Positions 1,330 to 16,253 of a stretch of DNA of 64,000 nucleotides are shown one piece after another (position 1 is the first letter of the stretch; each line of letters opens with the position of its first letter). Origin of the DNA: Minwuia thermotolerans (GTDB taxonomy: Bacteria > Pseudomonadota > Alphaproteobacteria > Minwuiales > Minwuiaceae); the NCBI RefSeq assembly GCF_002924445.1, contig NZ_PIGG01000031.1, positions 186,001-250,000 on the forward strand. The letters run 5' to 3'. Position numbers and translations under genes: made by a program. The notes below the pieces were generated by a model. The model saw nothing but the letters and a program-made list of their open reading frames with translations. It was not told the DNA's origin and searched no databases.

Positions 1330-2454
1330 ATGACGGAAAAGCAGGAGACGGAGCCGGCGGCCGACGCCCCGGCCGGAAGCGAGGCGGAGAAGCTTCGCCT
1401 GACGCCGTCCAGACAGTTCCCCAACTGGCTCGCCGAACAGGGCGTCAGTCTGGCATTCACGACCTATCAGGCGGGAAAGCTGTTTCTGATCGGACTCAAC
1501 GCAGACGGGCGGCTGTCGATCTTCGAACGCACCTTCAACCGCTGCATGGGGCTCTGGACCGACAGCCAGACGATCTGGATGAGTTCGCTCTACCAGATCT
1601 GGCGGATGGAGAACGTGCTCCCCGCCGGCGAGACCTATCGCGGCCATGACCGGCTGTTCGTGCCCCAGGTCGGCTACACCACCGGCGATATCGACGTCCA
1701 TGACATGGCGGTCGACCGCGACGGACGCCTGGTCTTCGCCGCAACGCTTTTCGGCTGTCTGGCGACGCTCAGCGAAAGCCATTCCTTCAAGCCCCTCTGG
1801 AAGCCTCCCTTCCTCAGCAAGCTGGCGGCGGAGGACCGTTGCCATCTCAACGGCCTGGCGATGCGCGATGGCCGCCCGCGCTACGTCACGGCGGTCAGCC
1901 GCTCCGACGTCGCCGACGGCTGGCGCGACCGCCGCACGGATGGCGGCGTGGTCGTCGACGTCGACAACGGCGAGATCGTCGCGGACGGCCTGTCGATGCC
2001 GCACAGCCCGCGCTGGCATGACGGCCGGCTCTGGCTGTCCAATGCGGGAACCGGCGAGTTCGGGTATATCGACCCGAAGTCCGGCCGCTTCGAACCGGTG
2101 ACGTTCTGTCCCGGCTTCCTGCGAGGCGCGACGATCGTCGGCGACTTCGCCGTGGTCGGACTGAGCTTGCCGCGCGAGAACCAGGCCTTCACCGGGCTGG
2201 CGCTGGACGAGAAACTGAAGGGCGCGGATGCCGAAGCCCGCTGCGCGCTCTATGTCATCGACCTGAAGAGCGGCGACGTGGTGCACTGGCTGCGCATCGA
2301 GGGCGTGGTCCAGGAACTCTACGACGTGGCGGCGCTGCCCGGCGTGCGGCGGCCCATGGCGATCGGATTCATGACCGACGAGATCCGGCGGGTGCTGACG
2401 GTCGACGACAGCGACTGGCCGGACCGGATCGAGAACAAGGGGGAGAAGGACTGA
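1330..2454 (+). CDS. TIGR03032 family protein of unknown function
   Basis: A 374-residue protein starting at ATG 1330 (MTEKQETEPAADAP), with a low-complexity acidic/alanine N-terminus and no signal peptide. The body matches the conserved hypothetical family TIGR03032 (DUF4915-like): FPNWLAEQGVSLAFTTYQAGK near the start, a run of NRCMGL / HDMA / CHLNGLA / SLSMPHSPRWH segments spaced like beta-propeller blades, and GVVQELYDVAALPG near the end. Biochemical function is not known. It is the first gene of a run whose next genes are npdG (2-base gap), cofE and cofD, so a link to F420 or to a redox modification is possible but unproven. A later, cleaner methionine start is not evident. Confidence 0.8.
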   Translation: MTEKQETEPAADAPAGSEAEKLRLTPSRQFPNWLAEQGVSLAFTTYQAGKLFLIGLNADGRLSIFERTFNRCMGLWTDSQTIWMSSLYQIWRMENVLPAGETYRGHDRLFVPQVGYTTGDIDVHDMAVDRDGRLVFAATLFGCLATLSESHSFKPLWKPPFLSKLAAEDRCHLNGLAMRDGRPRYVTAVSRSDVADGWRDRRTDGGVVVDVDNGEIVADGLSMPHSPRWHDGRLWLSNAGTGEFGYIDPKSGRFEPVTFCPGFLRGATIVGDFAVVGLSLPRENQAFTGLALDEKLKGADAEARCALYVIDLKSGDVVHWLRIEGVVQELYDVAALPGVRRPMAIGFMTDEIRRVLTVDDSDWPDRIENKGEKD

Positions 2455-2456
2455 AC

Positions 2457-3131
2457 ATGGCGGACAGGAAACCAGGCATTGCGGTCATCGGCGGCTCCGG
2501 CGACCTTGGGTCGGGACTGGCGCTGCGCTGGGCGCGCGCGGGCTATCCGGTGATCATCGGCTCGCGCACCGAGGAGAAGGCGGTTGCCGCCGCAGAGAAC
2601 ATCCGCGAACGCATTCCCGGCGCGGAGGCTTCAGGCATGGAGAACAGCGCCGCGGCGGCGGCCGGCGAGATCGTCGTCATGACGGTACCCTTCAGCAATC
2701 ACCGCCCGACGCTCGAAGCCGTGCGCGACGCCGTGCAGGGCAAGATCTTCGTCGACGTGACCGTGCCGCTGGTGCCGCCGAAGGTGAGCCGCGTGCAGAT
2801 GCCGCCCGAGGGTTCCGCCGGCAAGCTGGCGCAGGAGATACTTGGCCCCGAAGTGCAGGTGGTTTCCGCCTTCCAGAACGTGGCCGCTGACCATCTCGCC
2901 GATCTCGAACACGACCCGGATTGCGACGTCCTGGTGGCCGGCAACGCGGTCGCCGCGCGCGAGCAGGTGATCGAACTGGTCGAGGCCTGCGGTATGAAGG
3001 GCTGGCATGTCGGGCCAATCGACAACGCCGCGGTCGCCGAAGCCCTGACGTCGGTGCTGATCTTCATGAACAAGCGCTACAAGAGCCCGGGCGCCGGCAT
3101 CCGCATCACCAATATCCCCGGGGCCGACTGA
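2457..3131 (+). CDS. npdG: NADPH-dependent F420 reductase (F420H2:NADP oxidoreductase)
   Basis: A 224-residue cytoplasmic oxidoreductase that exchanges hydride between coenzyme F420 and NADP(H). The Rossmann motif IGGSGDLGSG is at 11-20 and is followed by IIGSR at about 33-37, the basic pair that reads the NADP 2'-phosphate. The tail has AAVAEALTSVLIFMNKRYK, typical of the family. Length fits the usual 210-230 residues. It begins 2 bases after the TIGR03032 gene and is followed by cofE, so F420 use and F420 synthesis are co-encoded. Confidence 0.9.
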   Translation: MADRKPGIAVIGGSGDLGSGLALRWARAGYPVIIGSRTEEKAVAAAENIRERIPGAEASGMENSAAAAAGEIVVMTVPFSNHRPTLEAVRDAVQGKIFVDVTVPLVPPKVSRVQMPPEGSAGKLAQEILGPEVQVVSAFQNVAADHLADLEHDPDCDVLVAGNAVAAREQVIELVEACGMKGWHVGPIDNAAVAEALTSVLIFMNKRYKSPGAGIRITNIPGAD

Positions 3132-3137
3132 CCGGCC

Positions 3138-3890
3138 ATGCCGCAACGCCTCGAGGTCATCGGTCTGTCCGGCCTGCCGGAGGTCCGGGCGGGCGACGAC
3201 CTGCCCGGACTTCTGCGGCAGGCCGCCGATGCCGCAGGCGGATTCTCTGAGGGTGACATACTCGTCGTCGCCCAGAAGATCGTCTCGAAGGCCGAGAACC
3301 GCTTCGTCGACCTGCGCACGGTGACGCCCGGCGAACGAGCCATCAGGGTGGCGCGCCACTGCGACAAGGATCCCAGGCAGGTCGAGGTCATCCTCTCCGA
3401 GAGCACGGAGATCGTGCGCCACCGGCCCGGCGTGCTGATCGTGCGCCACCGGCTGGGCCATGTGCTCGCCAATGCCGGTATCGACGCCTCCAACGTCCCC
3501 CAGCGGGACGGTTCGGAGTTCGTCCTGCTGCTGCCCCGCGACCCGGACGCGAGCGCCGAGGCGATCCGCAGGAGCGCCGGGGCGCGTATCGGCGTCGTCA
3601 TCAACGACAGTCCGGGCCGCGCCTGGCGCGCGGGCTCGGTCGGCATCGCCATCGGCTGCGCCGGCGTGAAGACGGTCGCCGACCTGCGCGGACAGACGGA
3701 CCGCGACGGCCGGACGATGCAGGCGAGCGAACTCGCCATCGCCGACGAACTGGCGGCCGCGGCTTCCATCGTCATGGGCCAGGCCGCCGAAGGCGTGCCG
3801 GCCGCGATCGTCCGTGGCGCGGGCGACATGCTGGGCGAAGGCCGCGCCGCTGACCTGGTTCGCGACCGTGAAATGGATCTGTTCCGATGA
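3138..3890 (+). CDS. cofE: Coenzyme F420-0:L-glutamate ligase (CofE)
   Basis: A 250-residue GTP-dependent ligase that adds L-glutamate residues to F420-0. Family marks are AQKIVSKAE (45-53), HRLGHVLANAGIDASNV, DSPGRAWRAGSVGIAIG and the metal/nucleotide region RGQTDRDGR. It is the single-domain archaeal/proteobacterial form. The C-terminal nitroreductase-like domain that actinobacterial FbiB carries (for reduction of dehydro-F420-0) is absent. It overlaps cofD by 4 bases (ATGA), indicating translational coupling. Confidence 0.92.
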   Translation: MPQRLEVIGLSGLPEVRAGDDLPGLLRQAADAAGGFSEGDILVVAQKIVSKAENRFVDLRTVTPGERAIRVARHCDKDPRQVEVILSESTEIVRHRPGVLIVRHRLGHVLANAGIDASNVPQRDGSEFVLLLPRDPDASAEAIRRSAGARIGVVINDSPGRAWRAGSVGIAIGCAGVKTVADLRGQTDRDGRTMQASELAIADELAAAASIVMGQAAEGVPAAIVRGAGDMLGEGRAADLVRDREMDLFR

Positions 3891-4825
3891 GCGAGCCGAA
3901 TGTGGTCTATCTGTCGGGCGGCGTCGGCGGGGCAAAGCTCGCGCTGGGCCTCTCGCACCTGCTGCCGCCCGAACGACTGACCATCGTCGCCAATACCGGC
4001 GACGATTTCGAGCATCTGGGCTTTCCGGTCTGCCCGGATATCGACACGCTGGTCTACACCCTTTCCGGTCTCGCCAATCCCGCTCTCGGCTGGGGACGGC
4101 GCGACGAGACCTCCGCCTTCATGGAAACCCTGCGCCAGCTTGGCGGGCCCGACTGGTTCTTCCTCGGCGACCGTGACCTTGCCATGCACGCCGAGCGCCG
4201 CCGGCGTGCGGCCGACGGGCATGACCTGACCGAAATCACCGCAGCTCTGGCGCAGGCTCTGGGCGTCGAACATCCGATCCTGCCCATGACCGACGAGCCG
4301 GCGCCGACAATCGTCGAGACGGTCGACGGCCCCCTCGCCTTCCAGGACTATTTCGTTCGATTGCGCGCGGCCCCCCCCGTCACAGGCTTCACGCTGCATG
4401 GCGGGCATATGGCTGCGCCCTCGAAGGCGGTTCTCGATGCCATCCGGGCCGCCGACCTGATCGTGGTCGGGCCATCCAACCCCTATATCTCGATCGACCC
4501 GATCCTGAAGCTCGCCGGCATGGACGCCGCGCTGCGCGAGGCTTCGGCCCCCATCGCGGTGATTTCCCCCATCGTCGGCGGCAAGGCCATCAAGGGGCCC
4601 ACGGCGAAGATGATGGCCGAACTCGGCCGGGAATCGTCAGTAGCGGGCGTCGCGGCGCATTACGGCGCTCTGGCCTCCGTTCTCGTGATCGACGCGGCCG
4701 ACGCGGATCAGGCCGCCGGACTCGCGGAGCTCGTTCCCCGCGTCTCGGTCACCAACACGGTCATGCGCACGCTGGAGGACAGGGTCGCGCTGGCGCGCCA
4801 TGTCCTCGGGCTTCGGGATCCGTGA
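3887..4825 (+). CDS. cofD: 2-phospho-L-lactate (or PEP) transferase CofD
   Basis: A 312-residue enzyme that transfers the activated three-carbon phospho-acid moiety to the deazaflavin Fo, giving (dehydro-)F420-0. It has the N-terminal GGVGGAKLALGL loop (11-22), ANTGDDFEHLG, PDIDT-type region, VVGPSNPYISIDPIL and IAVISPIVGGKAIKGP, all typical of CofD/FbiA. Whether the donor derives from 2-phospholactate, PEP or 3-phosphoglycerate cannot be read from the sequence. No guanylyltransferase (CofC/FbiD) or Fo synthase (CofG/H, FbiC) gene is in this window. It overlaps the next gene by 4 bases (GTGA). Confidence 0.93.
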   Translation: MSEPNVVYLSGGVGGAKLALGLSHLLPPERLTIVANTGDDFEHLGFPVCPDIDTLVYTLSGLANPALGWGRRDETSAFMETLRQLGGPDWFFLGDRDLAMHAERRRRAADGHDLTEITAALAQALGVEHPILPMTDEPAPTIVETVDGPLAFQDYFVRLRAAPPVTGFTLHGGHMAAPSKAVLDAIRAADLIVVGPSNPYISIDPILKLAGMDAALREASAPIAVISPIVGGKAIKGPTAKMMAELGRESSVAGVAAHYGALASVLVIDAADADQAAGLAELVPRVSVTNTVMRTLEDRVALARHVLGLRDP

Positions 4826-5757
4826 GGCTCGGGCCAAGAAGCATTCGGCAGACCGGCGACGACAGGCCGGTCGACAACCTGCTGCAGTTCGTCTGGCGGA
4901 TGAGCGGTCACCACCAGATCTGGCTGTGCCTTCTGGCGCTGACCGTCGCGGCCCTGAGCATGGCGCCGCTGGAACTGCAGCGGCGCATCGTCAACCAGGC
5001 GCTGGACAAGGCGGACCTGGAGCACCTGCTGTTCCTCGGCGGTCTGTTCCTCGCCGTGGTCGTGCTGTCAGGATTGCTGAAATTCACGCTGCGCATGTAC
5101 CAGGGCTGGATCAGCGAGAGCGCCATCCGCTATGGCCGCGGTCATCTGCTGCGGCTCTATCGTGAGAAACCCCACGAGGACAATCACGAGTCCGGCCGCG
5201 CCGTCTCCATCATCAGCGCCGAGATGGACAAGCTCGGCAGCTTCGTCGGCGAAGGCCTGTCCCAGCCGGTCGCCAATCTGGGCATGCTGGTCGCGATCCT
5301 CGGCTACATGCTGGTGGTCGAGCCGCTGGTCGCCCTGCTCGGCGCGGTCCTGCTGGTGCCGCAGGCGCTGCTGGTCCCCGTCGCCCAGCGCCGTATCAAC
5401 CGCCTGATCGAGCGCCGTCTCGAGACCATGCGCGACCTCAGCGACGTCATCGGCGAGGACGCGCGCGACGCCGGCGCCGAGGCGAAGATCGACCGGCTCT
5501 ACGGCAACCGCATGAAGACCTTCCTGGTGAAATTCGCCATGAAGGGCCTGATCAACCTGATGAACGGCCTCGCACCGCTGGGCGTGCTGATCTTCGGCGG
5601 CATCATGGTGATCCGCGACGAGACCAGCGTCGGCGTCATCGTCGCCTTCATTTCCGGCTTCGAGCGGATGGGCAATCCGCTGAGGGAACTGCTGAACTAC
5701 TACCGCGTCGCCGCACAGGCGACGGTCCAGCACCGCATGATTGCGCGCTGGATGTAG
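4822..5757 (+). CDS. ABC transporter transmembrane-domain protein without ATPase domain
   Basis: A 311-residue protein starting with GTG (4822), which overlaps the cofD stop. It is an ABC exporter type transmembrane domain: paired hydrophobic segments at about 32-50, 70-90, 145-190 and 250-280, with cytosolic coupling stretches such as [17 protein letters not shown] and [15 protein letters not shown]. The protein stops after [12 protein letters not shown], where a full half-transporter would continue into a Walker A domain. No ATPase gene is adjacent. The tight coupling to cofD suggests co-expression with the F420 genes. It may work with an ATPase encoded elsewhere or be a degenerate transporter. 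The substrate is unknown. Confidence 0.75.
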
Positions 5758-8632: not shown

Positions 8633-9877
8633 CTAGTTCCCCGGGCCGGCCAGCACGGTGATGGCGCAGGTGGCTTCCTCGAAGCGGTAGACGCCGCCGC
8701 CGTTCTCGGCGATGGCGTGGCGCGCGCCCTCGACCTGGCGGCCCCCGGCCTCGCCGCGGAGCTGGCCGACCAGTTCGTAGATCTGCCCCAGGCCCGTGGC
8801 GCCGATGGGATGGCCCTTGGATTCGAGGCCGCCCGAGGGGTTGACCGGCACCCGCCCGCCCAGGCGGGTCTCTCCGGCTTCCGCCGCGCGGCCGCCGTCG
8901 CCGAATTCGCAGAGCCCGAGGTTTTCCACCTGCTGCAGTTCGCCCATCGCCGTCGCGTCGTGCACCTCGGCGACGTCGATGGCGTCCGGGCCGAAGCCCG
9001 CCATGTCATAGGCCCTCTTCGCGGCGAGATGGGTGATGTGCCGGCGGTAGTCGTCGGGCTCCCGGTCGACGCCGGTGCCCATGACCGAGGCGGCGACGCG
9101 CACCGCGCGGGCCTTCTCGAAGCGGTCGAGCAGGTCGCCGGAAACCAGGATCGCCGCCGCCGCGCCATCGGAGATCGGCGAGCACATGGGCAGGGTCAGC
9201 GGCCAGGACACGATCCGCGCCGCCATCACCTCTTCCACCGAGATGTCGTTGCGATACTGGGACTTCGGGTTCAGCGTCGAGTGGAAATGGTTCTTGGCGG
9301 CGACATGGGCGAGCTGCGCCTGGGTCGTCCCGAAGGTCTTCATGTGAAACTTCGCCCAGCTGGCGTAGACGTCCATGAAGGGGCTGCGCTGGGAGTTCGG
9401 CAGCACGGCGTCGGCCGGCGTCTCGACCCCTGCCCCCAGCGCGTTCAGCCGCTCGAAGGTCGCCGCGCGGTCGTGCACGTCGATGGCGCCGTCGAAGATC
9501 TCGAAGCTGCGCGCCTTGTCCTCGTGGTACATCTTGTCCGCCCCGACCGCGAGGGCGATGCCGCATGTGCCGGCCCTGATCGCCGTATAGGCGGCGTTGA
9601 AGGCCGTCGACGCGCTGGCGCAGGCGTTCTCCACATTCGCCATCGGAATGCCCTGGAAGCCCATCTCGCGCAGCGCGATCTCGCCGGGGACGAGATACTG
9701 GCCTTCGAGCACGCCCTGGGTGGTGTTGGAGAACCAGGCCGCCTCCACGTCGCCCACACCCAGACCGCCGTCGGCGAGCGCCTCGTCCACTGCCTCCCGC
9801 GTGAGTTGTTTCACCGATTTCTCGAGAAAACGCCCGAACGGCGTCATTCCGATCCCGACGACATAGACCTCGGTCAT
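8633..9877 (-). CDS. Thiolase (SCP2-thiolase-like acyl-CoA acyltransferase)
   Basis: A 414-residue thiolase-superfamily enzyme. ATG 9875-9877 (MTEVYVVGIGMTPFGRF) has a strong GGGGAGG site 5 bases upstream; an earlier in-frame start lacks one. The acyl-accepting cysteine is present (Cys86 in NVENACASAST), as are the histidine in AEVHDATAMGE and KGHPIGATGLGQIYEL near the C-terminus, so it should be catalytically competent. It is likely a 3-oxoacyl-CoA thiolase for an unusual or branched acyl chain. It is divergent from the P450 gene across 68 bp with a palindromic operator candidate. Confidence 0.85.
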   Translation of the reverse strand: MTEVYVVGIGMTPFGRFLEKSVKQLTREAVDEALADGGLGVGDVEAAWFSNTTQGVLEGQYLVPGEIALREMGFQGIPMANVENACASASTAFNAAYTAIRAGTCGIALAVGADKMYHEDKARSFEIFDGAIDVHDRAATFERLNALGAGVETPADAVLPNSQRSPFMDVYASWAKFHMKTFGTTQAQLAHVAAKNHFHSTLNPKSQYRNDISVEEVMAARIVSWPLTLPMCSPISDGAAAAILVSGDLLDRFEKARAVRVAASVMGTGVDREPDDYRRHITHLAAKRAYDMAGFGPDAIDVAEVHDATAMGELQQVENLGLCEFGDGGRAAEAGETRLGGRVPVNPSGGLESKGHPIGATGLGQIYELVGQLRGEAGGRQVEGARHAIAENGGGVYRFEEATCAITVLAGPGN

Positions 9878-9945: not shown

Positions 9946-11172
9946 ATGACGATCACAGCGCCAGAACCGGTGGACTTCGCCGATCCGGAAATCATCGCCG
10001 CGCCGCAGCCGGTGCTCGACCGCCTGCGCGAGGAACAGCCTCTGCACTGGAATCCCTCGCTCAAGGGCTGGTTCGCCACCCGCTTCGAGGATGTCCGGCA
10101 GATCCTGTCGAGCCCGCACTTCTCGGTCGAGAAGTTCGGTCCCGTCATCGAACGCGCCGACGGCGAGGCCCGGGCGCGGCTGGAAACGCTGGCGAAGGTG
10201 CTGAGCGACTGGATCGTCTTCATGGACCCGCCGGGCCACACCCGGCTGCGCCGGGCGATGCGCACCGGCTTCATGCCCCGCGACATGGACGCCCTGGAGC
10301 CGAAGGTGCACGAGCGGGTCGACCAGTTGCTGACGCCGCTGGAAGGCTCCAGGGGCGCGGAACTGAAGGCGGCCTTCGCCAACCCGCTGCCGGCCATGGT
10401 GATCGGCGACCTGTTCGGCGTGCCGGAAGCGGACATCCCCGAACTGCGCCGCTGGGCCGATGCGCTGGGCAAGTTCGTGCTCGGCGGCCGGCAGACACCG
10501 GACCGCCACCGCCTCGCCCAGCAGGCGGTGCTCGACTTCGTCGCCTATCTCGAGCGTCTGGTTGCCGAGCGCCGCGCCGATCCCCGCCCCGACCTCACGA
10601 CCCACCTGATCCGCTACGAAGAGGACGGCGACCGACTGAGCAACGAGGAGATCGTCCATTCCATCCTGCTCTGCGTCTGGGCGGGCTACGAGACGACGGC
10701 GAATCTGATCGCCAACGGCACCATGGCGCTGGCCCGTAATCCGGCGCAGGCCGAGCGGCTCGCCGCCGACCCTTCGCTGATCCCCGACGCGATCGAGGAA
10801 TTCCTGCGCTTCGAAGGGCCGGTGCAGGCGCTGGTGCGTGTGGCCAAGCAGGACGAGACGGTGGGCGGCGCGGCCATCAAGGCCGGCGACCGCGTCTTTG
10901 TCTCCCTGTTCGCCGCGAACCACGACCCCGCCCGTTTCGCACACCCGGGCGAGTTCGACCCGGCGCGGCAGCGCAACCGCCACCTCAGCTTCGGTCACGG
11001 CATCCATCTCTGCCTCGGCGCACCGCTCGCCCGTCTGGAGGGCCGGGCGGCATTCGAAGGCCTGCTGCGGCGCTTCGGCGATTTCCGCATCGTCGAGGAG
11101 CCGACCTGGCGGGACGAACTGATCACCCGCACCGCCGAAGCCGTGCACATCGGCTGGACGCCCAGGACATGA
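9946..11172 (+). CDS. Cytochrome P450
   Basis: A 408-residue soluble class I type bacterial P450. ATG 9946 (MTITAPEPVDF) follows GGGGAGG. The family marks are all present: FMDPPGHTRLRRAM, the I-helix AGYETT oxygen-activation motif, the EEFLRFEG (ExxR) helix and the heme loop FGHGIHLCLGAPLAR with the cysteine ligand. No ferredoxin or reductase gene is adjacent, so electron donors must come from elsewhere. It overlaps the next thiolase-like gene by 4 bases. Together with the thiolase, aldolase-like and DUF35 genes it suggests oxidation and shortening of a hydrophobic side chain. The substrate is unknown. Confidence 0.93.
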   Translation: MTITAPEPVDFADPEIIAAPQPVLDRLREEQPLHWNPSLKGWFATRFEDVRQILSSPHFSVEKFGPVIERADGEARARLETLAKVLSDWIVFMDPPGHTRLRRAMRTGFMPRDMDALEPKVHERVDQLLTPLEGSRGAELKAAFANPLPAMVIGDLFGVPEADIPELRRWADALGKFVLGGRQTPDRHRLAQQAVLDFVAYLERLVAERRADPRPDLTTHLIRYEEDGDRLSNEEIVHSILLCVWAGYETTANLIANGTMALARNPAQAERLAADPSLIPDAIEEFLRFEGPVQALVRVAKQDETVGGAAIKAGDRVFVSLFAANHDPARFAHPGEFDPARQRNRHLSFGHGIHLCLGAPLARLEGRAAFEGLLRRFGDFRIVEEPTWRDELITRTAEAVHIGWTPRT

Positions 11173-12317
11173 AGAAGGCATTCATCACCGGCGTCGCCAA
11201 CACCCGCTGCGGGAAGCTGCCCGAGGAAAGCGCCCTGTCGCTGCACGCCACCGTCGCGCGCGAGGCGGCGGCCGACGCCGGCATCGACCTGAAGGACGTG
11301 GACGGTCTGCTCTGCGCCTATTCCTTCACCGAGCCGCATCCGATGCTGGCCCACGTGGTCGCAGAGTATCTGGGCATTCAGCCGGCCTTTGCCGCCTGCG
11401 TATCGGCCGGCGGCGCCACGGGCGCACTGCACGTGATGACCGCGAAGGCTCTGGTCGAATCCGGCATGTGCCGCAACGTGCTGTGTCTCACAGGCGACAA
11501 CCGGCTGACCGGCATGGCGCCCGGCGCGGCAGTGGCCGCGCTCGCCGACTTCGGCCACAGCGAGTTCGAGGTGCCCTATGGCATCACCATTCCGGCCGCC
11601 TACGGCCTGGTGGCGCAGCGCTACATGCACGACACCGGCCTGACGCTGGAGCACATGGCCCACATCGCGGTCACCACCCGCAATCACGCCCGCCGCCACC
11701 CGGACGCCCAGATGCGGAAGCCGCTTTCGGTCGAGGACGTCATGGCCAGCCGCCCCATCGCCGAGCCGCTCCGTCTGTTCGATTGCGCGCTGATTTCCGA
11801 CGGCGCGGCCGGCATTATGGTTTCCGCCGGGTCCACAGGCGGCAAGCCGGCCATCCGCATCCTGGGTGCCGGCCAGAAGGGCACCCACGAGCACCTGATG
11901 GCCGCACCCCGCGACCTGCAGAGCTTCGGCTGCAAGCACTCGGCCGCCGACGCCTTCCGGGAGGCCGGCATGACGGTGAAGAACATCGACGTGGCCGAGA
12001 TCTACGACAGCTTCACCATCACGCTCGCGATCGAGCTCGAATCCATCGGCTTCTTCGAGAAGGGTACGGTGGGCCCGGCCGCCGCCGAGGGCGCGCTGGA
12101 CCTGGGCGGCGCCCTGCCCTGCAACACCCATGGCGGACTGCTGAGCTTCGGCCATTCCGGCGCGGCGGGCGGCGCCTTCCACGTCGTCGAGGGCGTGCGC
12201 CAGCTACGCGGCGAAGCGGGCGAGCGGCAGGTGAAGGACGCCGCCACCTGCTACGTCCACGGCGACGGCGGCACGCTGTCGGCCCATGTCTCCCTGATAC
12301 TGGAGCGCGCGGCATGA
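11169..12317 (+). CDS. Thiolase-fold protein without catalytic Cys/His (Ltp2-aldolase-like)
   Basis: A 382-residue thiolase-superfamily protein. At the place of the nucleophilic cysteine the sequence reads SAGGATGAL (79-87), with glycine aligned to the Cys of the neighbouring thiolase. The usual EVHDA is replaced by AEIYDSFT (Tyr279), the pattern of Ltp2-type steroid side-chain retro-aldolases and related lipid-transfer-protein-like enzymes. The C-terminal THGGLLSFGHSGAAGG is conserved. Ltp2 enzymes act as a complex with a DUF35 protein, and a DUF35 gene overlaps the end of this one. An aldolase role is therefore inferred. It could alternatively be a non-catalytic scaffold. Confidence 0.8.
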   Translation: MKKAFITGVANTRCGKLPEESALSLHATVAREAAADAGIDLKDVDGLLCAYSFTEPHPMLAHVVAEYLGIQPAFAACVSAGGATGALHVMTAKALVESGMCRNVLCLTGDNRLTGMAPGAAVAALADFGHSEFEVPYGITIPAAYGLVAQRYMHDTGLTLEHMAHIAVTTRNHARRHPDAQMRKPLSVEDVMASRPIAEPLRLFDCALISDGAAGIMVSAGSTGGKPAIRILGAGQKGTHEHLMAAPRDLQSFGCKHSAADAFREAGMTVKNIDVAEIYDSFTITLAIELESIGFFEKGTVGPAAAEGALDLGGALPCNTHGGLLSFGHSGAAGGAFHVVEGVRQLRGEAGERQVKDAATCYVHGDGGTLSAHVSLILERAA

Positions 12318-12727
12318 GCGACGCCAGGGCCACGACCAAGCCCGTCCCGGTCCCCACCGTCGATTCGGAAGGCTTCTGGACCGCCTGCGCCGGGGAGCGG
12401 CTGACCGTCCAGCGCTGCGGCGCCTGCGGCGCGGCGCAGTTCTATCCGCGCAACCGCTGCACCGCCTGCGGCTCGGCAGACCTGAGCCTCATCGACGCGG
12501 CCGGGACCGGTACGGTGTTCACCTTCACTGTCAATCACCGCGCCCCGACCGCGGCTTTTGCCGCGGAAGCGCCCTATGTCATCGCGCTCGTCGACCTGGA
12601 CGAGGGGCCGCGCATGATGATGAACGTTATCGGCTGTGCGCCGGCGGAGGTCTCGATCGGCATGAAGGTCCGGATCGTCTTCGAGGCGCGTGGCGGGATG
12701 AAGCTGCCCCAGGCGACACCTGCCTGA
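12314..12727 (+). CDS. DUF35/OB-fold zinc-ribbon protein, partner of the thiolase-like protein
   Basis: A 137-residue protein starting in the ATGA overlap with the previous gene. An N-terminal helix (SEGFWTACAGERLTVQRC) is followed by a rubredoxin-like zinc ribbon with Cys35, Cys38, Cys49 and Cys52, then an OB-fold (GTGTVFTFTVNHR ... VIALVDLDEGPRMMMNVIG). This is the classic DUF35 architecture. These proteins bind acyl-CoA and are essential partners of thiolase-like aldolases and hydratases such as Ltp2/ChsH2 systems. The translational overlap supports a complex with the 11169-12317 product. Confidence 0.9.
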   Translation: MSDARATTKPVPVPTVDSEGFWTACAGERLTVQRCGACGAAQFYPRNRCTACGSADLSLIDAAGTGTVFTFTVNHRAPTAAFAAEAPYVIALVDLDEGPRMMMNVIGCAPAEVSIGMKVRIVFEARGGMKLPQATPA

Positions 12728-14330: not shown

Positions 14331-16253
14331 ATGACCGATCCGAAGACGCCGAAACAAGCCAGCGAAGCCACGCTGGCGGCGAACCGCGGGCTGGCCGGGA
14401 AGCTCAATTTCGCCGACCGCGACGACTTCGAGAACGCCGCCCGCGGCCACGTGGCGAGTCTCGACGGCGGGGTCATCGCCACCGAGCGCGGCACGAAGGT
14501 CTGGGATCTCAACGTCTACGATTTCCTGGACGGCGACGCCGGGATCGACACGATCAACCCCAGCCTGCTTCGCATGGCGCGGCTCAACATGCACAACGGC
14601 CTGTTCACGGTCACTGACCGGGTCTGGCAGGTCCGCGGCCTCGACCTCGCCAACATGACGATCATCGAGGGCGATCAGGGGCTGATCCTGATCGACTGCA
14701 TGACCACCGCCGAGGTCGCCCGCGCCGGACTGGAGCTCTTTTTCGAGCACCGTCCGCGGCGCCCCGTGAAGGCCCTGATCTACACTCACAGCCATGTCGA
14801 CCATTATGGCGGCGCCCGCGGCGTGCTGACGCCCGAGGAGGCCGCCTCCGGTGCGGCGCAGGTCTTCGCCCCCGACGGCTTCCTGGAGGCCGTGGGCGGC
14901 GAGAACGTGCTGGCCGGCAACGCCATGACCCGGCGCGCGCAGTTCCAGTTCGGCGGGCTGCTGAATCCCGGGCCGCGCGGCCAGGTCGACGCCGGCCTGG
15001 GCAAGGTGACGGCGCGCGGCACGATCAGCCTGATCGCGCCGACCGACATCATCGTCCAGCCCGTGGAGCGGCACATGGTCGACGGCCTCGCCATCGACTT
15101 CCACCTCGCGCCCGGCACGGAGGCGCCAGCGGAGATGCACATGTTCTTCCCCGACCTGGGAGTGCTGAACATGGCCGAGAACGCCACGCCGCTGCTGCAC
15201 AATTTCTGCCCGCTCCGGGGTTCGGAGGTGCGCGATCCGCGCATCTGGTCGCACTTCCTGGCGGACGCTGTCGAACGCTTTGGCGCGAAGACGGAGGTGC
15301 TGATCTGCCAGCACCATTGGCCGACCTGGGGACGCGAGAACGTCACCGGTTTCCTGCAGCGCCAGCGCGACCTCTACAAGCACATCCACGACCAGACGGT
15401 CCGGCTGATGAACCATGGCTGGCGGCCGGCGGAAATCGCCGAAGCGCTGGACCTGCCGCCGTCACTGGCCGACGACTGGCGCATGCGAGGCTACTACGGC
15501 ACCGTCAGCCACAATTCCAAGGCCGTCTTCCAGCGCTATCTGAGCTGGTACGACGGCAATCCGGCGAACCTGAACCCGCTGCCGCCCGTCCCCGCGGCGC
15601 GGAAATATGTCGACTACATGGGCGGGGCGGCCGACGTGCTGGCGAAGGCGCGCGCGGATTTCGACGCCGGCGAGTACCGCTGGGTGGCCCAGGTGCTCTA
15701 TCATGTGCTGTTCGCCGACCCCGAGAACGGGGATGCGCGGCACCTGGCCGCCGACGCCTTCGAGCAACTCGGCTACCAGGCCGAGAGCGCGACGTGGCGC
15801 AACGCCTATCTCTACGCCGCACAGGAGCTGCGCCACGGCGTGGTCAAGCTGCCGCCGCGGCCGATCCTGAGCCCCGACCTGCTGGGCGCGGTGGCGACCG
15901 AGACGCTGTTCGACTTCATCGCCGTGAGGCTCGACCCGGCGAAATGCGCCGGCATGAGCTGGCGCATCAACTGGCATCTCACCGACCGCGAAGAGCGCGT
16001 CTGCCAGACGCTGGCCAACGAGACCCTGACCCAGATCATGGGCAAGGTCGCAGACGACGCGCTGGCCACGGTGACGACGCGGCGCGATGTGCTGGTCGCG
16101 CTGATCGTCGGCAAGGCGACCGTTGCCGAGGCTCTCGAAGGCGGCGCGCTCACCGTCACCGGCGATGGCTCGGTCGTGACGGGCCTGTTCGACATGCTTG
16201 ACGGCTTCGACATGCAGTTCGACATCCTGACTCCCGGCCCGGAGCATCTCTGA
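14331..16253 (+). CDS. Linear primary-alkylsulfatase (SdsA/BDS1 family metallo-beta-lactamase)
   Basis: A 640-residue member of the metallo-beta-lactamase alkylsulfatases, which cleave SDS-like alkyl sulfates to alcohol and sulfate at a two-zinc site. The start is ATG 14331 after a G-rich site. The metal motif THSHVDHYGG lies at about 152-161, and further marks are EAPAEMHMFFPD, HHWPTWG, the dimerisation region PVPAARKYVDYMGGA and a C-terminal SCP2-like lipid-binding domain (GMSWRINWHLTDREERVCQTL). No signal peptide is visible, unlike the secreted SdsA1 of Pseudomonas, so a cytoplasmic location is likely. Confidence 0.92.
   Translation: MTDPKTPKQASEATLAANRGLAGKLNFADRDDFENAARGHVASLDGGVIATERGTKVWDLNVYDFLDGDAGIDTINPSLLRMARLNMHNGLFTVTDRVWQVRGLDLANMTIIEGDQGLILIDCMTTAEVARAGLELFFEHRPRRPVKALIYTHSHVDHYGGARGVLTPEEAASGAAQVFAPDGFLEAVGGENVLAGNAMTRRAQFQFGGLLNPGPRGQVDAGLGKVTARGTISLIAPTDIIVQPVERHMVDGLAIDFHLAPGTEAPAEMHMFFPDLGVLNMAENATPLLHNFCPLRGSEVRDPRIWSHFLADAVERFGAKTEVLICQHHWPTWGRENVTGFLQRQRDLYKHIHDQTVRLMNHGWRPAEIAEALDLPPSLADDWRMRGYYGTVSHNSKAVFQRYLSWYDGNPANLNPLPPVPAARKYVDYMGGAADVLAKARADFDAGEYRWVAQVLYHVLFADPENGDARHLAADAFEQLGYQAESATWRNAYLYAAQELRHGVVKLPPRPILSPDLLGAVATETLFDFIAVRLDPAKCAGMSWRINWHLTDREERVCQTLANETLTQIMGKVADDALATVTTRRDVLVALIVGKATVAEALEGGALTVTGDGSVVTGLFDMLDGFDMQFDILTPGPEHL

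Follow-up and report, generated by a model that had tools for sequence, protein, structure and literature searches.

A thiolase-fold protein with glycine and tyrosine at the switched active-site positions and an adjacent DUF35 protein in Minwuia thermotolerans: a predicted two-subunit acyl-CoA retro-aldolase

Study of a 64,000-nucleotide stretch of the Minwuia thermotolerans genome (contig NZ_PIGG01000031.1, positions 186,001 to 250,000; hereafter the window) drew attention to two adjacent genes, encoding a thiolase-fold protein (P0001) and a DUF35 protein (P0002). P0001 matches the Pfam family Thiolase_C_1 (3.2e-51), and P0002 matches OB_ChsH2_C (9.8e-27) and zf-ChsH2 (2.2e-11) and no other domain; its zinc motif, CX2CX10CX2C, comprises four cysteines. 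As the original prediction for this locus had it, the two genes overlap by 4 bases (12314-12317, ATGA). The 3′ end of the cytochrome P450 gene (P0004) and the 5′ end of the P0001 gene overlap by 4 bases too and, because of these overlaps at both junctions, the three genes form a single tight run on the same strand (Table 1). Comparison with the orthologues of another genome of the genus, G006, gave ratios of nonsynonymous to synonymous substitution rates (dN/dS) of 0.076 for P0001 and 0.227 for P0002; both genes are under purifying selection, which is strong for P0001. Given the Pfam E-values and these ratios, what is seen in P0001 and P0002 is not due to chance.

Table 1. Genes and diagnostic codons of the locus (positions in the window)
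Feature	Position	Strand	Remarks
P0001, thiolase-fold protein, predicted acyl-CoA beta-hydroxy retro-aldolase	11169-12317	+	382 aa
P0002, DUF35 protein (zinc ribbon and OB fold), predicted partner subunit	12314-12727	+	137 aa
P0004, cytochrome P450, first gene of the run	9946-11172	+	Pfam p450, 2.4e-30
P0003, SCP2-type thiolase, complete, divergently oriented neighbour	8633-9877	-	Cys86/His306/His356 intact
Gly82 codon, position of the thiolase nucleophile Cys	11412-11414	+	aligns with CtSal Gly89 and the thiolase Cys
Tyr279 codon, predicted catalytic base	12003-12005	+	aligns with TcLtp2 Tyr294 and CtSal Tyr302
Ser281 codon	12009-12011	+	position of TcLtp2 His296 and CtSal Cys304
His329 codon, proposed general acid	12153-12155	+	position of TcLtp2 Tyr344 and CtSal Gln352

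The motifs SAGGATG and EIYDSFT, in which Gly was predicted to replace the thiolase nucleophile and Tyr the EVHDA histidine, were both found in P0001: in an alignment of 144 rows, Gly82 falls on the nucleophile Cys column and Tyr279 on that of the HDxF histidine. The adjoining thiolase P0003 keeps the two residues, as had also been predicted (Cys86 and His306), together with His356. The histidine of the thiolase GHP motif is retained in P0001 as His329, and the residue that follows Tyr-Asp is a serine, Ser281 (YDSF). Gly82, Tyr279, Ser281 and His329 align, in this order, with Gly89, Tyr302, Cys304 and Gln352 of the characterised aldolase CtSal and with Gly83, Tyr294, His296 and Tyr344 of TcLtp2; Arg216 and Tyr165 of CtSal, which contact coenzyme A (CoA), are conserved as well. 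The register of the alignment could be checked, since it recovers the published numbers of CtSal (Y302, C304, Q352, R216 and G89) and TcLtp2 (Y294, H296 and Y344). According to PMC12329534, the tyrosine is the base in both Ltp2 and Sal, and the acid is Tyr344 in the former and Cys304 in the latter. By these roles and the residue map, P0001 possesses the predicted base but neither of the two known acids, and it is His329 that stands at the position of the acid tyrosine of Ltp2.

The alignment was built from sequences gathered by similarity to P0001 and to a paralogue from the same genome, P0007 (see below), near-duplicates being dropped (169 matches reduced to 138); the rows are related, so that the counts are of sequences and not of events. 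Gly goes with Tyr in 139 rows out of 139, Cys with His in 5 out of 5, and there is no mixed row; hence loss of the Cys and gain of the Tyr are coupled. Ten further P0003-like thiolases all have the Cys/His pair. Of the 139 Gly/Tyr rows, 138 have an acidic residue (Asp or Glu) at position 280. At positions 281 and 329 the pairs are Ser/His (51 rows), Ala/His (39), Cys/His (15), Cys/Tyr (14), Asn/Tyr (9), His/Tyr (5) and Cys/Gln (2), the remainder being 4 single oddities and the 5 thiolases. Thus, within the Gly/Tyr rows, Ser at 281 is accompanied by His at 329 in 51 cases out of 51, and Ala by His in 39 out of 40. This is a pattern in related sequences rather than a test, but it fits a role of the histidine as acid where the neighbouring residue would be unable to serve. 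The subgroup that combines Asn at 281 with a Tyr in the acid position (loci L145-L152 and L163) is a separate observation; no characterised member of it was seen.

A quick tree, which was computed without the four diagnostic columns and gave long-branch warnings, places P0001 in a clade of 23 rows, with a support of 99 in the Shimodaira-Hasegawa-like approximate likelihood ratio test (SH-aLRT). All 23 rows have the Gly/Tyr/Ser/His set, Ser281 and His329 being invariant. TcLtp2 belongs to a separate clade of 19 rows (SH-aLRT 97), which includes P0007, and the long branch of CtSal is placed elsewhere, not grouped with P0001. The Tyr/Ser/His set is present beyond the P0001 clade too, for instance in 4U4E, and the fewest changes that the tree requires are 12 at position 281 and 5 at position 329. 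The label of Ltp2-like enzyme, given to P0001 in the original prediction, is not supported: P0001 has Ser and His where Ltp2 has His296 and Tyr344, and it lies outside the Ltp2 clade. The paralogue P0007 (G000, contig C45) is of the Ltp2 type, with YDHF and an equivalent of Tyr344, and is paired with a DUF35 protein of its own, P0008, the two genes together occupying L041:8555-10151. Beside P0007/P0008 are TRAP transporter genes and an alkyl-sulfatase-like gene (L041, 10215-11480), the second of its kind in the genome; in the window, a gene for an alkyl-sulfatase-like metallo-beta-lactamase protein lies near the aldolase pair (14331-16253, + strand).

The DUF35 gene is found directly 3′ of the aldolase gene and on the same strand in all 23 members of the P0001 clade, and a possible start codon giving the 4-base overlap exists at 17 of the 23 loci. 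Over 36 loci, distances between aldolases correlate with those between their DUF35 partners (Spearman 0.65, a value reached by 0 of 500 permutations), and the four-Cys zinc motif is retained in 34 of the 36 DUF35 proteins, the exceptions being those of L084 and L039. The two families are co-inherited. The best solved relatives of P0002 are 6ok1_B and 9myr_B, and a stand-alone DUF35 protein that works with an aldolase has a precedent in Atf1-ChsH4, as described in PMC10398937. The evidence on the predicted complex of P0001 with P0002 consists of gene adjacency and partner covariation. That a DUF35 partner is needed, as first claimed, goes further than the literature: PMC11321319 reports that complex formation is mediated by the domain, which appears unimportant for activity.

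The AlphaFold2 model of P0001 has a predicted local distance difference test score (pLDDT) of 89.7 and a predicted template modelling score (pTM) of 0.92. Its nearest solved chains are 4u4e, 9myr (Sal), 5ab4-7 (TbSLP) and 6ok1 (Ltp2), with the thiolase 6esq tied; Foldseek puts 4u4e, Sal and TbSLP on top. In VIA-align the values are Z 54.3 for 6esq (root-mean-square deviation, rmsd, 1.9; 379 residues aligned), 54.2 for Sal (2.2; 375), 53.9 for TbSLP (1.9; 372) and, lower, 51.0 for Ltp2 (2.3; 366). The first three are tied.

The residue map to characterised enzymes and the DUF35 gene directly 3′ in every member of the clade lend good support to the original idea of a retro-aldolase with a DUF35 partner. 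We consider it fairly likely, on these sequence comparisons, that P0001 and P0002 are the two subunits of an enzyme cleaving a beta-hydroxyacyl-CoA into an aldehyde or ketone and a short acyl-CoA. Tyr279 would remove the proton of the beta-hydroxyl, whose oxygen would lie against Gly82, in the gap left by the absent Cys. After cleavage of the C-C bond, His329, the retained GHP histidine, would protonate the acyl-CoA enolate and so stand in for the acid Tyr344 of Ltp2, while Ser281 and the C-terminal GG loop may hold the thioester oxygen. P0002 would support the fold and the pocket wall, in the manner of the DUF35 domain of ChsH2. In several relatives the hydroxyl could come from a hydratase, in this genome possibly from the P450. 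What the analysis shows are the residues, the predicted fold, the pairing of the genes and the position in the tree; the reaction, the parts played by Ser281 and His329 and the complex are inferences.

The genomic surroundings were compared as well. A search of genome contigs for related loci returned 1 locus. A hydratase gene of the enoyl-CoA hydratase (ECH) or MaoC type lies at most three genes away in 6 of 30 regions (L031, L038, L046, L077, L083 and L087); the independent cases are fewer than six, because L031 and L077 are close relatives. One gene order among relatives is acyl-CoA dehydrogenase (ACAD)-ECH-aldolase-DUF35-MaoC-ACAD. A Sneathiella metagenome-assembled genome (L031) and the related genome G332 (L077) have ACAD, ECH, aldolase, DUF35 and more CoA genes; the order in G008 is aldolase, DUF35, ECH; and G259 has a same-strand run (L083:8195-12324) of MaoC, HpcH/HpaI C-C lyase, family III CoA transferase, DUF35 and aldolase. 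These contexts are in keeping with a hydration step and then retro-aldol cleavage, with varied substrates. The G259 run adjoins an IclR regulator and offers good prospects for identifying a substrate. A search for MaoC in the own genome, with matches in 18 places, was uninformative. After the pair, G001 and G002 carry a gene for a LigB-family dioxygenase and a PPOX gene, both of which are a few genes away in G003. The LigB-family gene was sought and not found in G000, the present genome, or in G006, so the aromatic substrate that it suggests was discarded for this genome. The idea of a thiolase-like retro-aldolase in the phenylpropanoid phd operon proved wrong when checked, PhdB and PhdC being described otherwise.

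The original prediction had also joined the P450 and the thiolase to the pair as a module that could degrade a sterol- or terpenoid-like side chain. A P450 gene lies beside the aldolase gene in just two of the seven genus genomes (G000 and G006); the P0004 orthologue exists only in G006 (98%), the best P450 of the other five being 38-39% identical. The P0003 orthologue (82-84%) is present but away from the aldolase gene in five of the seven, at 3.4 Mb in G003, a genome of one contig, and on a different contig in the drafts G001, G002, G004 and G005. Among 26 P450 loci besides that of the window (L173-L198, with flanks of about 1.5 kb), a P0003-like thiolase is close to the P450 at L185, the G006 orthologue, and at L179, and the aldolase and DUF35 genes occur only at L185. 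With the P450 orthologue confined to G006 and the thiolase orthologue elsewhere, a conserved module was rejected; the link of the P450 to P0001 is lineage-specific, and P0003 is probably not a component of the P0001 unit. A P450 paralogue carrying a single in-frame TGA was seen at G000:C34:41995-43173 and G006:C1:4342736-4343914, and likewise in G003. As to the substrate, no result favours either a sterol or a terpenoid, and neighbours elsewhere include general CoA-pathway genes. Farther off in the window, a TIGR03032 gene is followed by a row of F420 genes (1330-4825, + strand), namely npdG (NADPH-dependent F420 reductase), CofE and CofD, all assigned with scores over the NCBIfam cut-offs. 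They are followed, 3′ of CofD, by a 311-aa open reading frame (4822-5757, + strand) whose only match is a modest one to ABC_membrane, NCBIfam giving none.

Several points weigh against a retro-aldolase. Fold comparison failed as a discriminator, since 6esq, a true thiolase, tops the VIA-align list, level with Sal, and fold alone cannot separate aldolase from thiolase. Ser281 by itself would be no substitute for the acid Cys, because the C304S variant of CtSal is inactive (PMC12329534); the mechanism thus leans on His329, whose role as acid is deduced from its position, and a published test of such an acid was looked for and none was found. Shared ancestry alone may be the source of the distance correlation of the DUF35 partners, and in 24 of the 30 regions no hydratase is seen up to three genes away, not all their unlabelled genes having been searched. 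Taken together with the loss of the nucleophile Cys, the inactivity of C304S would also suit a catalytically dead scaffold acting as a partner in binding or regulation, e.g. as an acyl-CoA carrier between enzymes. Such a scaffold would have no need to retain the exact base of an aldolase, however, and the invariance of Tyr and Gly, the acidic residue 280, the fixation of Ser281 and His329 in the clade and the low dN/dS of P0001 make it unlikely.

Another possibility is that the enolate chemistry carried out on the same fold is a different one, either decarboxylation of an acyl-CoA or the synthetic aldol condensation; the same residues could be used in either direction. TbSLP, a Tyr-type relative, decarboxylates malonyl-CoA, if at a very low rate, but PMC12329534, which reports this, gives CtSal no malonyl-CoA decarboxylase activity; moreover, the ACAD, ECH, MaoC and CoA transferase neighbours in several relatives look catabolic, and we hold this explanation to be quite improbable. 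In favour of a true aldolase for steroid or sterol side chains, of Ltp2 or Sal type and acting together with the P450 and the thiolase, are the catalytic Tyr, the Gly and the four-Cys zinc site of the DUF35 partner, which P0001/P0002 share with such enzymes, and the presence of CYP125 reconstructions and CYP124 among the many matches of P0004. These matches, however, are broad CYP107-like chains, the P450 link is restricted as said above, and P0001 departs from both enzymes at residues 281 and 329 and in its place in the tree. Furthermore, of the 60 genomes searched for KshA_C (PF19298), G050 gives 283.6 bits, against 23.6 bits in the own genome (cut-off 23.3) for a partial match over positions 5-67 of 207; this single, marginal marker was rejected as support for a steroid pathway in the host, without being proof of its absence. 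Altogether a steroid aldolase is very unlikely here.

To judge from its residues, the acid-base set of P0001 is different from those of both characterised aldolases, and it belongs to a widespread and mislabelled bacterial group: the best database matches of P0001 are given names such as thiolase or acetyl-CoA acetyltransferase in spite of the absence of the residue that defines thiolysis. The set of Tyr plus thiolase His, with Ser, makes up roughly one third of the family as sampled. A broader and somewhat doubtful idea is that the thiolase fold reached retro-aldol catalysis through at least three acid-base sets on an invariant Tyr/Gly core, i.e. Tyr with Tyr (Ltp2), Tyr with Cys (Sal) and Tyr with the thiolase His and an adjacent Ser. 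If so, many proteins annotated as thiolase or acetyl-CoA acetyltransferase would become aldolases of acyl-CoA compounds, paired with stand-alone DUF35 proteins and acting on substrates other than steroids. A residue code (Gly with Tyr, the residue after Asp, and the His/Tyr/Gln position) would sort them and predict the completing acid. Should His329 be the acid, the steroid aldolases would represent two particular forms within a larger family of CoA-linked aldolases. A Tyr/Ser/His thiolase-fold aldolase was not described in the literature searched (titles and abstract openings, with subscription journals mostly outside the search, hence no proof of absence), and the string 'ydsf' had 0 occurrences in the 11 papers searched for it.

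Among the known proteins closest to P0001 is 4U4E, a putative thiolase of Sphaerobacter thermophilus for which only the structure exists: it is the best Foldseek and phmmer match, has the same Gly, Tyr-Asp-Ser-Phe and His at the acid position, but is about 39% identical and placed in another part of the tree. CtSal (9MYR) shares with P0001 the Gly, the Tyr, the two CoA contacts and a DUF35 partner, and differs by YDCY instead of YDSF and by Gln352 instead of His329; its DUF35 domain forms part of a fusion with a MaoC hydratase and has a zinc site of the Cys3His type (PMC12329534), in contrast to the stand-alone P0002 with its four Cys. TcLtp2-ChsH2 (6OK1) resembles the pair in its Gly, its Tyr294 and its four-Cys DUF35 partner, but has YDHF, a Tyr as acid and a clade of its own, and ChsH2 is a hydratase subunit, with DUF35 fused to MaoC, where P0002 has zinc ribbon and OB fold only. 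Atf1-ChsH4 of Mycolicibacterium neoaurum is likewise a pair, encoded in a single operon, of an aldolase and a stand-alone DUF35 protein, but in the sterol pathway and with a Sal-like enzyme; the likeness is drawn from the description in PMC10398937. SCP2-type and archaeal thiolases (6HSJ and 6ESQ) have the fold in common with P0001, and 6ESQ the GHP histidine as well, but they carry the nucleophile Cys and the HDxF His that are both replaced in P0001. P0001 falls in the thiolase-fold group of the Gly/Tyr, aldolase type, by its fold, by the residues at the two switched positions and by the adjacent DUF35 gene, and retro-aldol activity is what this membership would predict.

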